64,000 nucleotides of DNA, from the NCBI RefSeq assembly GCF_002161555.1, contig NZ_NFHZ01000005.1, positions 124,001-188,000 on the forward strand. The letters are read 5' to 3'. A program made the translations under genes and the position numbers. Source of the DNA: Barnesiella sp. An55 (GTDB lineage: Bacteria > Bacteroidota > Bacteroidia > Bacteroidales > Barnesiellaceae). The notes below the pieces were generated by a model that searched no databases, was not told the origin of the DNA, and saw only the letters and a program-made list of their open reading frames with translations. Positions 32,881 to 37,640 of this stretch are shown in pieces; the stretch's first letter is position 1, and each line of letters begins with the position of its first letter.

Positions 32881-34092
32881 TTATCTATTTTGTGAGGTCA
32901 TATAATTTGATTGAGTAAGCACATAAGTGGTTGTATTGCCGTTGCTCTTCTTGACCGTATATCGGGTTTCGCCCTTGAGGCCCAGACCGTTTCGCTGTTC
33001 CTTCCAGGTTATCTCTTTCACCGGCCGATCGTTTATGGCTATGATGGTGTCGCCTATCTCGATGCCGGCCCGCTCGGCAATGCCGCCTTGATAGAGGCCG
33101 TTGACAATCCAGCCGTCGCAGATGTCTGTGCGGTCAACGGTTGCCATGTGTGAGACCGACGATTGGGAATAGGTACCTTTGTTTGCATTTCGTTTTACCC
33201 ATACCGAGGCGTGGAGCGGGTCTATGACTATATCGTAGAGCGACCAGATTTCATTGCCGATGATGCCTTCATAGGGACGGTTGGACGATAAGGCTCCTTT
33301 CTGGTTGAGCGAGCAGTCTATGACCAGATTGTCGAGTGTATCGACCATGCAGAACCGGGTGGCCCTTAGTGTCATATTTTCGGAACCGCCACCCACGCCG
33401 CCGGCTTGTGTGCGGAAATAGGCCTTGGGTATCTGGTCGAGATGAAGCGTCGAGGTTGTTTCGTTGGTGAGCGAGACGGTGGAACCACTGCCCAAATCCA
33501 TGCGAAACCAGCCTTCCACCACGTTTGCAGAGTCGATTTGCATACGGGCTTTTACGTCGATGCGATTCTCTTCGAATCGGGCTTCGAGCTTGTGGTAGCT
33601 GACGAGTGAGTCGGGCGGGAGTGGCTCTTTCAAAGGTGCAATGTAGCACTCGCTGAAGTTAATCATCAAAGGGGCCTGTAACAGGTGGGTGTTGCCCAGC
33701 AGGCCGTCGATATATCGTCCCAGAATATCGCGCAACCCGATGATGGGGGTTATCTTGTTCTGGTAGTCCAACCTGCCGCACCGAATCTTGATCGGGTCGA
33801 TGAAGATGTCGACCCGCTGCGGGTCGCTGCTGCCGGCACCGCCCATGTGGGCCGTACCTTTCCGGCCGAATGCGTCTTGCAGGTGGTTCAGGTTCAGAAA
33901 ATCCTTGTCGAGATAGAGGAAGTCGGCCCCGGTATCGTAGATAATTGTGACCGGTACGGTATCGTTTAGCGTGGCTTGCAGATAGAGATGACTGTCGAAG
34001 ATAAAGGGTATGGCGCCGTCGGGTCGTGCGGCATGGCTTTTGGAAAGACACAGAGCCCCCAAAAGGAAGATGAAGTAAACTGTTTTTTGCAT
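32881..34092 (-). CDS. Secreted aspartyl protease-like protein with PDZ domain
   Basis: From ATG 34092 the protein has 403 residues, with a signal peptide (1-21, MQKTVYFIFLLGALCLSKSHA cut at the end). It carries two retropepsin-like lobes: YDTGADFLYLD with Asp53, and DLGSGSTVSL with Asp199 in place of the usual D-T/S-G. A PDZ domain (about 330-385, QGGIAERAGIEIGDTIIAIN) follows. Activity is likely but not proven, because the second motif is DLG. It is the last gene of the BlaI-BlaR1-TonB operon, 118 bases after the TonB lipoprotein gene. A longer frame to 34167 would bury the signal peptide. Confidence 0.85.
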   Translation of the reverse strand: MQKTVYFIFLLGALCLSKSHAARPDGAIPFIFDSHLYLQATLNDTVPVTIIYDTGADFLYLDKDFLNLNHLQDAFGRKGTAHMGGAGSSDPQRVDIFIDPIKIRCGRLDYQNKITPIIGLRDILGRYIDGLLGNTHLLQAPLMINFSECYIAPLKEPLPPDSLVSYHKLEARFEENRIDVKARMQIDSANVVEGWFRMDLGSGSTVSLTNETTSTLHLDQIPKAYFRTQAGGVGGGSENMTLRATRFCMVDTLDNLVIDCSLNQKGALSSNRPYEGIIGNEIWSLYDIVIDPLHASVWVKRNANKGTYSQSSVSHMATVDRTDICDGWIVNGLYQGGIAERAGIEIGDTIIAINDRPVKEITWKEQRNGLGLKGETRYTVKKSNGNTTTYVLTQSNYMTSQNR

Positions 34093-34210
34093 GGCAGAAG
34101 CGTGTTTGTGCAGGGACTGAAACCGGGTAGGGGCGGACGAAGCTCTGGTCGGCTTCTTCTCCTGCACCCGACCCGATTTTCAAAGAGTAGTAAAAGGTCT
34201 CGCTTTCAGA

Positions 34211-34675
34211 CTATTGAAGCTTGAAGGCAATGGGCAGGGTATATCGTACGTTCACCGGCTGTCCGTCCTGCATGCCTGGTTTCCAGTCGGGGAGGGTACG
34301 CACTACGTCGATGGCAGCCTGATCGAGCATCTTGTCGATGCTGCGAACAACTTGAATATGGCCTATTTTTCCCTCTTTATCGACCACGAATTGCAGGACC
34401 ACACGCCCCTCGATGTGGCCGTCGATAGCGTTTTGAGGGTACTTGAGGTTTTGGGCAATTGTTTGGTACAGGGCTTGCGTGCCACCCGGGAACTCGGGCA
34501 TCACTTCGGCAACTTCATATACCGAGTCGGGTGTGGTTGGGGCCGGAGCAACCGTTTCGGTGGTAGCTCCGGATTCGTTGGGAGCAGCTGTTTCAGTTTG
34601 TTGAGGGTTGGCATTACAGCTGGCCAACAGGAGGCTTACGGAGGCCAGGACAGAGAATAACAGTTCTTTTTTCAT
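34211..34675 (-). CDS. Lipoprotein with TonB C-terminal domain
   Basis: The 154-residue protein has a lipoprotein signal ending LLASC at about residue 20, a Pro/Thr/Glu-rich linker (about 22-52), and a TonB_C domain (about 58-154) with YPQNAIDGHIEGRV and the VNVRYTLPIAFKLQ end. It has no N-terminal membrane anchor of the usual TonB sort. It would sit on a membrane facing the periplasm and may act as an energy transducer or a binding partner. Its domain is nearly identical, in DNA as well, to that at the end of the BlaR1-like gene 34 bases upstream. Confidence 0.87.
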   Translation of the reverse strand: MKKELLFSVLASVSLLLASCNANPQQTETAAPNESGATTETVAPAPTTPDSVYEVAEVMPEFPGGTQALYQTIAQNLKYPQNAIDGHIEGRVVLQFVVDKEGKIGHIQVVRSIDKMLDQAAIDVVRTLPDWKPGMQDGQPVNVRYTLPIAFKLQ

Positions 34676-34709
34676 TGCAGTAAAGTTTTATTTAAGGTGT
34701 ACAAATTGG

Positions 34710-35984
34710 TCAGGATAGTTTGAAGACAACCGGTAAGGTATATCGCACATTCACCGGCTTGCCGTTCTGCCTGCCCGGTTTCCAGTCGGGCAGCGTGTGC
34801 ATCACGTCGATGGCAGCCTGATCGAGCATCTTGTCGATGCTGCGAACAACTTGAATATGGCCTACTTTTCCCTCTTTATCGACCACGAACTGGAGGATTA
34901 CGCGCCCCTCGGTCTGGTTGTCGATAGCCTCCTGGGGGTATTTGAGATTCTCGGCGATAAACTCGAAGAGAGCCTGGTTGCCGCCGGGAAACTCGGGCAT
35001 CACCTCGGCCACTTCGAATACGGGTTCTTGCTCGGGTACCTCGCGGGGTATGGCCGTTTGGGGCTGAGCTCCGCTTGTCGTTGACTGTATCGAATTGTCG
35101 TTTTGTACTTTATGACCCGACGATTGCTGGCAACTCTGGCTGCCGACGATAAGTAGGAGCAGAAGCGGAGCAACCAGAGGGTAGAGGCATAGCGACCACC
35201 GGGAGGAGCGCTTGCGGTTGATCATGGCGATGCGCGCCTTCAAAAACGAATGGCTGAAGGGGATGGCCGACGTGTGCGTTGGATTGTTGTTCACCAAGTC
35301 GAGCAGCAGGTATTGGTATGACCTTGTTTCGGGCTCGTCGAGCAGGGCGGTGCGGTCGGCCAGATACTCGAGATTGAGCCGTATCTCCTTCAGCAGCAGC
35401 CAGGAAACGGGGTTTATCCAGCAGAGAGCCGCCATGCACTCACCCAGCAGAATGTCGGCCGAGTGCATTTGCTTGATGTGGGTTCCTTCGTGTTTCAATA
35501 TCTTGTCCAATGCCTCGGGCCTGTGGAGCATCGAGGCTGGCAGGAATATCCAGTTGAAGAACGAGCAGGGTTGTATTTCGTCGCGGCAGATGACAAGTCG
35601 CAGTCCCTCCTGGCGATGTATTTTGCCGCGTAGGCGCAGCCCGATAATCGAGATTAATCGCACGCCTATGCGCAGCCCCAGCAGCAGAGCTATGCCGCCA
35701 TAGAGCCAGGCAGCCAGCCGGTAGAGGTCGAGTGTGGCTGGGGTAGCGTTTTCGTCGGTTGGGCTCACCTGCAGTTCGGATAGGGAGACTTGCAGTACCT
35801 GTGGAACTGCCTGCCCGATGACCGGGATGCGATATAGCGGGAAGGTGATGGCAAACAGAAGGATGCCCAAGAGCAAGAACCGTCGCATGGCAAAGTGGGT
35901 GTCGCGGCTGAACAGTGCCTTGTAGGCCATGTAGAGCAACGTGAGTGCGATGTGTACTTGTAGCAGATATAGCAGAAAGTTCAT
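34710..35984 (-). CDS. BlaR1/MecR1-type M56 metalloprotease fused to a TonB domain
   Basis: The 424-residue inner-membrane protein has membrane segments near 3-20, 36-52, 88-115 and 262-282. The zinc motif HEGTH is at 165-169 (usual form HExxH), with Glu206 in NLEYLAD as the likely third ligand. Instead of a penicillin-binding sensor domain, the periplasmic end is a TonB_C domain (about 325-424). In BlaR1/MecR1 the protease cleaves the BlaI repressor on receiving a signal; the sensed signal here is unknown. It follows blaI by 24 bases and is in the same operon. Confidence 0.9.
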   Translation of the reverse strand: MNFLLYLLQVHIALTLLYMAYKALFSRDTHFAMRRFLLLGILLFAITFPLYRIPVIGQAVPQVLQVSLSELQVSPTDENATPATLDLYRLAAWLYGGIALLLGLRIGVRLISIIGLRLRGKIHRQEGLRLVICRDEIQPCSFFNWIFLPASMLHRPEALDKILKHEGTHIKQMHSADILLGECMAALCWINPVSWLLLKEIRLNLEYLADRTALLDEPETRSYQYLLLDLVNNNPTHTSAIPFSHSFLKARIAMINRKRSSRWSLCLYPLVAPLLLLLIVGSQSCQQSSGHKVQNDNSIQSTTSGAQPQTAIPREVPEQEPVFEVAEVMPEFPGGNQALFEFIAENLKYPQEAIDNQTEGRVILQFVVDKEGKVGHIQVVRSIDKMLDQAAIDVMHTLPDWKPGRQNGKPVNVRYTLPVVFKLS

Positions 35985-36008
35985 GATGTCTTGATTTTGG
36001 GTGTGGTC

Positions 36009-36371
36009 TTATTTTTTCTCTCGCTCGATCATTTCGATGATTTGGCGCAGGTCCTCCTCCGATAGCTTGTTTTCGTGAGCAAAGAAGGAGACCATCTCTT
36101 TGTAGGAGTCGGAGAAATAGCTCTTGACAATCCCCGACAGGAACTTTTTCTTGTATTCGTGCTGGCTGATGTGTGGCGTGTAGAGATAGGTGTTGCCTAT
36201 CTTCTGGCTCGACAGATAGCCTTTCCGCTCGAGATTCTTGACTACCGAGGCAACCGTGGTATAGGGTGGGCGCGGCTCGGGTAGTTTCTCGAGAAAGTCT
36301 TTGATGATGCCTTGCCCTTTTTCCCAAATAGCGAGCATTACCTCTTCTTCTTGGTGTGTCAGTTTGTCCAT
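36009..36371 (-). CDS. BlaI/MecI/CopY-family transcriptional repressor
   Basis: The 120-residue protein has the winged-helix N-terminus of the family (LTHQEEEVMLAIWEKG, then PYTTVASVVKNLERKGYL, about 36-53) and a helical C-terminal dimerisation part. It is the first gene of the operon with the BlaR1-like protease, whose role in this family is to cleave and inactivate the repressor. Two tandem dyad sites overlap its own promoter, so it most likely represses its own operon. It is not linked to any beta-lactamase in this window. Confidence 0.93.
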   Translation of the reverse strand: MDKLTHQEEEVMLAIWEKGQGIIKDFLEKLPEPRPPYTTVASVVKNLERKGYLSSQKIGNTYLYTPHISQHEYKKKFLSGIVKSYFSDSYKEMVSFFAHENKLSEEDLRQIIEMIEREKK

Positions 36372-36389: not shown

Positions 36390-36425
36390 TTACGATTGTT
36401 TCGCAAATCTACGAAAATTTCGTAG
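36390..36425. promoter_or_regulatory. Two tandem operator-like dyads at the BlaI promoter
   Basis: CTACGAAAATTTCGTAG (36409-36425) is a perfect 8-1-8 inverted repeat. TTACGATTGTTTCGCAA (36390-36406) is an imperfect copy sharing TACGA and TTTCG at the same spacing, offset by 19 bases, about two helix turns. The first lies in the spacer between the -33 and -7 boxes and abuts the -7 box; the second covers the -7 box and the start of transcription. This is a textbook position for repression by BlaI dimers. The core TACGA/TCGTA differs from the classical TACA/TGTA. Confidence 0.75.
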
Positions 36426-36434
36426 AATAACAAA
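36404..36434 (-). promoter_or_regulatory. Promoter of the BlaI-BlaR1-TonB operon
   Basis: On the minus strand, TTTG (36434 to 36431), a 19-base spacer and TAGATTTG (36411 to 36404) match the consensus fully. Both dyads overlap it. Confidence 0.75.
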
Positions 36435-36691: not shown

Positions 36692-37048
36692 TTAATTGTT
36701 GCCCTCTTTCTCTTTCTTGGCCACGCGAGGAATGAGGATAGAGGTGTATAGCTGCAGGGCTGCACCCACGGTGAGCAGCATTATCCAGTCGGGATCGTCG
36801 CGGAACATGAAGTACGACGAAGCCACCAGGAAGAGCGACGAGAAAGTCTCGATATGGAAGAGCCTCTTCAGTCTGAAATTTTTGCCCTTGTACCGGAATG
36901 TGAGGCGACAGATAGCCATGCCGGCAGCACCGCAGGCATAGAGGTAGGGAACCCACGGCAGTTTGATCATGAACAGCGGTAGGGCGGCCCCGACGATAAC
37001 GGCGATAGACGATACCATAAAAAGCATGTCGCGAGTGTTCTGTTTCAT
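36692..37048 (-). CDS. Small integral membrane protein, unknown function
   Basis: The 118-residue protein has four likely membrane segments (about 8-27, 32-48, 68-84 and 87-108), with basic residues between segments two and three and a charged tail (KKEKEGNN). I do not recognise a family or motif. It lies 21 bases downstream of the FtsB/DivIC-like gene on the same strand and is probably co-transcribed with it. Confidence 0.75.
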   Translation of the reverse strand: MKQNTRDMLFMVSSIAVIVGAALPLFMIKLPWVPYLYACGAAGMAICRLTFRYKGKNFRLKRLFHIETFSSLFLVASSYFMFRDDPDWIMLLTVGAALQLYTSILIPRVAKKEKEGNN

Positions 37049-37069: not shown

Positions 37070-37396
37070 TTATTTCTTAGGCTCGACGATATAGATATCT
37101 TCGTTGGGCTTACTCATATAATATTGTTCGCGGGCAATTTGTTCGACCACGTTTTTGTCGGTTTTCAGTTTCTCAATCTGGCTGTTGTAATAGTCGGTCG
37201 TGTCGTTTTGGGCCGCGATTTGCTGGCGCAGGTCGTTGATTTCGCCGTCGTAACGGATGCGTTGAATACAGCTGTTCTCGTCGATAAAGAGGATAAAGAT
37301 TAAAAACACGACCAGCACGGCTTTTCCCGGAGAGAAATGCTTGCGTGCGTACTCGAGTATTTTGTTCTTTTCGAACTTGCTTTTGTCAAATTTCAT
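37070..37396 (-). CDS. Septum formation initiator (FtsB/DivIC family)
   Basis: From MKFDKSKFEK (37396) the protein has 108 residues: a short basic cytoplasmic part, one membrane segment (about 27-41, VLVVFLIFILFI), then a coiled coil (about 50-82) and a conserved VEQIAREQYYMSKPNEDIY end. This is the DivIC/FtsB layout; such proteins join FtsL and FtsQ in the divisome. The frame is open 37 codons further up, but that extension is basic, without family likeness, and would spoil the topology. Confidence 0.87.
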   Translation of the reverse strand: MKFDKSKFEKNKILEYARKHFSPGKAVLVVFLIFILFIDENSCIQRIRYDGEINDLRQQIAAQNDTTDYYNSQIEKLKTDKNVVEQIAREQYYMSKPNEDIYIVEPKK

Positions 37397-37640
37397 CGCA
37401 TCGAAAGAATGGTCACCTATTTTTGGGGTAAAAGTACGAAAAAAATTTTGTTCGACCAATCGTGCCGGGTTCTTACTTGGAGAAAGTCTGCTTGCACGAG
37501 CGGACATAATTTCAGTAACGGAGTGTGAAGAAAATTTTCTTATTGGCTGTATCTAATTGCCTATAGATTAAAATAGTATAATTCTCTGAGTCTTTAAGTC
37601 TTGTTAATCAATTACTAACATGAAATGGCATAAAGCTTGT

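Follow-up and report, generated by a model that had tools for sequence, protein, structure and literature searches.

A BlaI/BlaR1-like operon of Barnesiella with TonB_C domains as a candidate proteolytic switch

Repressors of the BlaI family and their partner membrane proteases sense penicillin in other bacteria. A locus built from the same two protein families lies in the genome of Barnesiella sp. An55 (3.03 Mb), on a stretch of 64,000 nucleotides of contig NZ_NFHZ01000005.1 that we refer to as the window. With the staphylococcal BlaI-BlaR1 and MecI-MecR1 systems it shares the repressor family, the transmembrane and metalloprotease fold of BlaR1, the pairing of repressor and protease genes and a palindromic operator over the promoter of the repressor. 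Where they have a penicillin-binding sensor it has a TonB_C domain; it also lacks a beta-lactamase, has an operator of the form TACGAAA-n-TTTCGTA and is set in a Gram-negative periplasm. The core of the Barnesiella system is BlaI, an M56 protease ending in TonB_C (M56-TonB_C) and an exported TonB_C protein without a motor.

Closer to it are the gene pairs of Bacteroidota annotated as 'BlaI/MecI/CopY regulator' and 'M56 family metallopeptidase', in some cases with an 'energy transducer TonB'. The example from Parabacteroides distasonis (UNS60_RS03295-03305) has the same families, the same operator class and an adjacent TonB_C lipoprotein, but there the lipoprotein gene lies upstream under a separate operator, and a CarboxypepD_reg domain and two TonB_C domains are part of the M56 protein. 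A literature search for the function of M56-TonB proteins, or for the working of BlaI/M56 pairs that carry a TonB_C or Plug domain, found no description. Cell-surface signalling of the FecARI type, in which TonB-dependent outer-membrane proteins act on transcription via regulated proteolysis (PMC7593790), is similar by analogy. It differs in that the Barnesiella operon has no sigma/anti-sigma pair and is proposed to rely on a one-component repressor that its own membrane protease cleaves.

All four genes of the locus, with the operator, motifs, domains and spacer located in them or between them below, are on the minus strand, in the order repressor, M56 protease, lipoprotein and aspartyl protease; the first-pass annotation had described four same-strand genes with these domains, and the coordinates together with Pfam matches for all four bear this out. 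The repressor (36009..36371, 120 aa) matches Penicillinase_R (103 bits, 1.2e-29) and contains the winged helix and C-terminal dimer region of BlaI/MecI repressors, as seen with Pfam and in phmmer matches to the MecI/BlaI structures 1sd6, 1okr and 1sd4. The M56 protein (34710..35984, 424 aa) is a BlaR1-like membrane protease matching Peptidase_M56 (2.4e-10) and, at its C-terminus, TonB_C (5.4e-21). The lipoprotein (34211..34675, 154 aa) consists of an LLLASC lipobox (C20), a linker and a TonB_C domain (3.9e-23). The last gene (32881..34092, 403 aa) encodes a secreted, pepsin-like aspartyl protease with a C-terminal PDZ domain. This protein almost certainly starts at the ATG at 34092 and not at the GTG at 34167, as the former is where its homologues start, with a signal peptide at their N-terminus. 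With this start the gaps along the four genes are 24, 34 and 118 bp; the short gaps claimed earlier therefore hold for the first two and not for the spacer ahead of the aspartyl protease.

The M56 protein has both the HExxH ... ExxAD signature and the BlaR1 transmembrane and protease fold of its family. The zinc motif HEGTH (35478..35492; H165, E166 and H169), along with E206, A209 and D210, is invariant in 21 homologues. In an AlphaFold2 model (mean pLDDT 79) the membrane and protease part matches BlaR1 of S. aureus (8EXQ, 8EXP and 8EXR, with a TMt of 0.67 to 8EXR), and a profile search gives BlaR1 8EXP at 1.7e-12 over residues 2-284 and TonB at 9e-12. The TonB_C domain (residues 346-423; 34716..34949) follows the fourth transmembrane helix, TM4, and has the C-terminal fold of TonB energy transducers, the end of the model matching the FoxA-bound TonB domain 6I97_D (TMt 0.78, 1.3 Å). 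The presence of the BlaI and M56 families would also suit an ordinary beta-lactam-sensing bla operon that lacks its beta-lactamase. We regard this as very improbable: Pfam and NCBIfam scans of the M56 protein gave no penicillin-binding or beta-lactamase-like (class-D-like) sensor domain, only TonB_C, the blaR1_generic equivalog model scores 24.3 bits against a cut-off of 400, and the M56-TonB_C architecture is found in most of the ~150 top matches listed across Bacteroidales.

For comparison we used nine genomes of Barnesiella, the genus of the window, and other loci from Bacteroidales and Bacteroidota. A promoter and tandem operator (36391..36434) ahead of the repressor gene are conserved in all nine Barnesiella and in G029 and G010, which belong to two other families. 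The TTTG element (36431-36434) is followed by a 19-bp spacer and a -7 box, TAGATTTG (36404-36411), and judged by the known consensus TTTG-N19-TAGATTTG fits a Bacteroidetes promoter. The first operator, O1 (CTACGAAATTTTCGTAG, 36409-36425), overlaps the -7 box and the second, O2 (TGCGAAACAATCGTA, 36391-36405), lies about two helical turns beyond it; in this tandem order O1 reads TACGAAATTTTCGTA, also given as TCTACGAAATTTTCGTAGA, and its layout is kept in all eleven genomes. With zero mismatches the O1 15-mer TACGAAANTTTCGTA occurs once per genome in 10 of the 11, the site in G004 having one mismatch, and the operator 35-mer is unique in the window, with 0 expected. As in the BlaI/MecI family, there is thus a palindrome at the promoter of the repressor itself, conserved over the -7 box, which is the putative BlaI site. 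Relaxed O1 patterns yielded only scattered extra sites. A larger BlaI regulon of O1-like sites was considered and rejected, as the zero-mismatch operator is found at the BlaI promoter only, while near matches lie scattered and for the most part differ from genome to genome. The repressor and protease seem, on this sequence evidence, to control only their own operon.

The genome encodes just three TonB_C domains, those of the M56 protein and the lipoprotein and that of a classical TonB located elsewhere beside ExbB and ExbD genes. The lipoprotein has a signal peptide only, without the N-terminal ExbB-coupling helix and proline-rich linker of TonB transducers, and because it has no such helix it cannot transduce force. 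Free-standing TonB_C neighbours of this kind come in two forms, lipoproteins (LASC in the window; VGC) and exported soluble proteins (G029 with KAQA↓Q, G472 with AKA↓Q), and the ExbB-coupling helix is present in none of them. In a tree of TonB_C domains the copies from M56 proteins and from lipoproteins are not separated. The two copies of G007 pair with one another and are 94% identical, and those of G029 also pair within the genome. G001 has no lipoprotein gene and its M56 protein bears a TonB_C domain of the lipoprotein type, which is the pattern expected if recombination between the two copies had deleted the lipoprotein gene. By these patterns the TonB_C domains of the M56 protein and the lipoprotein recombine with each other.

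Comparison with P. distasonis points to the role of the lipoprotein. In that named record the TonB_C lipoprotein gene is upstream of BlaI and has an operator of its own (TACGAATATTTCGTA...TTTGCGAAACCGACGTA), while BlaI has another; both are O1-type sites, and O2 is also present at that of the lipoprotein. Relative to Barnesiella the gene order has changed and the operator has followed the lipoprotein. Because it has its own copy of the operator there, the lipoprotein is probably a real target, or output, of the circuit. The earlier suggestion of a circuit other than beta-lactam sensing, with TonB-type domains as sensor or partner, is supported to this extent: TonB_C takes the place of the sensor, and a separate TonB_C protein is its linked partner and likely its target.

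We propose, with a probability of about 0.5, that the operon is an autoregulated proteolytic switch of the BlaI/BlaR1 type with a periplasmic TonB_C sensor, in which the lipoprotein acts as a competitor and the aspartyl protease is outside the circuit. BlaI would bind O1 and O2 over its own promoter, as the conserved site suggests, and repress blaI, m56-tonB and the lipoprotein gene. Contact of the M56 TonB_C domain with an outer-membrane partner that is also bound by TonB, or loss of such contact, would activate the M56 protease, which would then cut BlaI. Derepression of the operon would give more TonB_C lipoprotein, which may compete for the same partner and damp the signal, making a negative feedback. 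As to the signal, a P. gingivalis BlaI gene with an M56 neighbour shows a lower level under excess hemin (log2 -1.74; PMC10470040), a hint, and no more, of TonB-dependent nutrition.

Several observations weigh against this switch. The bond at which staphylococcal BlaI is cleaved, which we take to be N101-F102, aligns with F96-F97 of the Barnesiella repressor, so that the P1' Phe is retained and the P1 Asn is not; since the residues there are F-F, cleavage at the staphylococcal bond is not assured. The lipoprotein gene is present in seven of the nine Barnesiella and absent from two, and the competitor is therefore dispensable. Lastly, if signal peptidases were to cut TM4 of the M56 protein, sensing by one intact chain as in BlaR1 could not work.

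TM4 (residues 262-285; 35130..35201) has an end, ...LLLLLIVGSQSC285, that resembles a signal peptide with a lipobox. In 17 of the 21 homologues in the alignment of M56-TonB proteins the helix closes with a Cys, preceded in nearly all cases by Ser or Ala, and a polar linker comes next. In a set of 54 non-redundant M56 proteins of Bacteroidota (<60% identical) the end of TM4 has [GAS]C in 20, small-x-[AG]↓Q in 15 and at least one of these in 33, against 2, 2 and 1 at the ends of TM1, TM2 and TM3. Shuffling the TM4 windows 2000 times gave a mean of 8.0 and a maximum of 19, and two fixed-offset control windows gave 0 of 54 each. A↓Q is the Bacteroidetes signature of signal peptidase I, the Q-rule (PMC5837995). 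By analogy with BlaR1, and with positive residues ahead of the helix, TM4 is expected to run N-in/C-out, as a signal peptide does.

These motifs raise, tentatively, another explanation, that in the M56 proteins of Bacteroidota TM4 serves as a cleavable signal peptide, behind which signal peptidase II or I cuts and frees periplasmic TonB_C as a lipoprotein or a soluble protein. M56-TonB would then yield the same kind of product as the adjoining lipoprotein, and export and processing, or a lost contact, would switch the protease; the free-standing TonB_C neighbours described above use the same two routes. However, the SQSC of the window is a weak lipobox at -3, both motifs are absent in 21 of the 54 proteins, the DivIC family also has SC after its helix, and the motifs were chosen after a look at part of the same set. 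The end of TM4 may also be left over from the fusion of genes with those of secreted proteins. TM4 would thus be either cleaved, freeing the sensor, or a fusion relic, and its conservation across divergent proteins favours a use. Taken across the phylum, the chance falls somewhat short of even that TM4 is an internal signal peptide cleaved by signal peptidase II, or by signal peptidase I with pyroglutamate formation, releasing TonB_C, Plug or another sensor, with the TonB_C forms being motorless TonB decoys. The M56 'sensors' would on that account be polyproteins, each giving rise to a protease of the inner membrane and a free partner, periplasmic or lipidated.

The autoregulated switch leaves out the aspartyl protease. 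Its Pfam matches are PDZ_6 (2e-7), PDZ (4.1e-6) and Asp_protease_2 (3.9e-5), and its catalytic residues D53 (DTG) and D199 (DLGS) are invariant in 20 homologues. The model (pLDDT 89) has a double-lobed pepsin/retropepsin fold, each lobe having a catalytic Asp as in pepsin-like enzymes. The first-pass annotation saw in it the output effector of a single four-gene circuit. Consistent with this, the gene is adjacent and on the same strand in three Barnesiella, and no promoter was found in the 200 bp upstream of it, nor any TAnnTTTG in the 118-bp spacer (34093..34210). Of 30 loci of this protease family read outside the genus, 3 place a distant homologue next to or within ~3 kb of a BlaI-M56 pair (G351, G302 and, divergently, G152), one of them directly downstream, which against a rough chance estimate of 1-2% is a weak enrichment.

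Against such a role, six of the nine Barnesiella have the BlaI/M56 pair without the aspartyl protease, the other three having it at the cluster end. Orthologues that are 69-73% identical occur in Bacteroides heparinolyticus, two Alistipes, Amulumruptor, Xylanibacter rarus and another Muribaculaceae, and all six lie among unrelated genes away from any BlaI/M56, contrary to the expectation that the gene stays with the pair in related genomes. The spacer can fold into a hairpin that is clear in two of the three genomes (G003 and G006) and weak in the window, and no BlaI operator was found near the gene. We therefore consider the aspartyl protease unlikely to be the output, and the four genes are not one conserved circuit. 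By its distribution it is better described as a horizontally moving, stand-alone gene, a patchy passenger outside the circuit, which may be co-transcribed with the operon where it has landed. A promoter of its own, inherited with the gene, was considered and rejected; the regions ahead of the close orthologues could not be aligned and have no promoter in common. Genes of the family are found in 28 of 393 Bacteroidales genomes. At one locus (L138) BlaI is followed by two tandem M56 genes, ~2 kb from an aspartyl protease gene of this family.

Of the nine Barnesiella, three carry the aspartyl protease in the slot before RodA, four have a pair of genes on the opposite strand there, and in two the slot is empty. 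The pair (L041, L043, L047 and L040) encodes an outer-membrane-protein-like product and a leucine-rich-repeat lipoprotein with GKSAYELAVE repeats. In each of the nine, RodA-PBP2-MreD come next in convergent orientation. On the other side, eight genomes keep the order DivIC, a 118-aa membrane protein, BlaI and M56-TonB_C; the ninth, G004, has BlaI, M56 and the lipoprotein in place but gave no match to the first two genes in the stretch. The 118-aa protein (36692-37048 of the window) has no Pfam match and is 83-96% identical in seven other Barnesiella. In the DivIC family (37070-37507 in the window) ENSC is conserved just after the single helix in 24 of 24 matched ORFs, a set with repeated loci. 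At one further locus (L058, G034) genes for BlaI, M56 and TonB_C come directly after MreD-PBP2-RodA in the same orientation, and the M56 gene is split in two frames. A link to the cell-wall genes mreD-pbp2-rodA was rejected and taken as coincidence, being seen only in Barnesiella (convergent) and G034 (co-directional); rodA was found beside a listed M56-TonB match in no other of ~50 families.

The same genome contains a second BlaI-M56 pair (L005, contig C5, ~51.6-53.9 kb), in which the M56 protein is fused to the Plug domain of a TonB receptor. The operator of that BlaI is of a different class, ACTAAAAC-TTTTAGT, and palindromes of the form ACTAAAA-TTTTAGT are found at this other BlaI and at most distant BlaIs. 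Since the operator classes differ, two separate BlaI circuits probably coexist in the genome.

BlaI genes paired with an M56 protein that bears TonB_C or Plug occur widely in Bacteroidota. Since its operator and target are defined and its sensor and decoy recombine, the circuit can be tested in Parabacteroides or Barnesiella, and if it is true that signal peptidases process TM4, the standard picture of BlaR1-type sensing by one chain would fail for this phylum.

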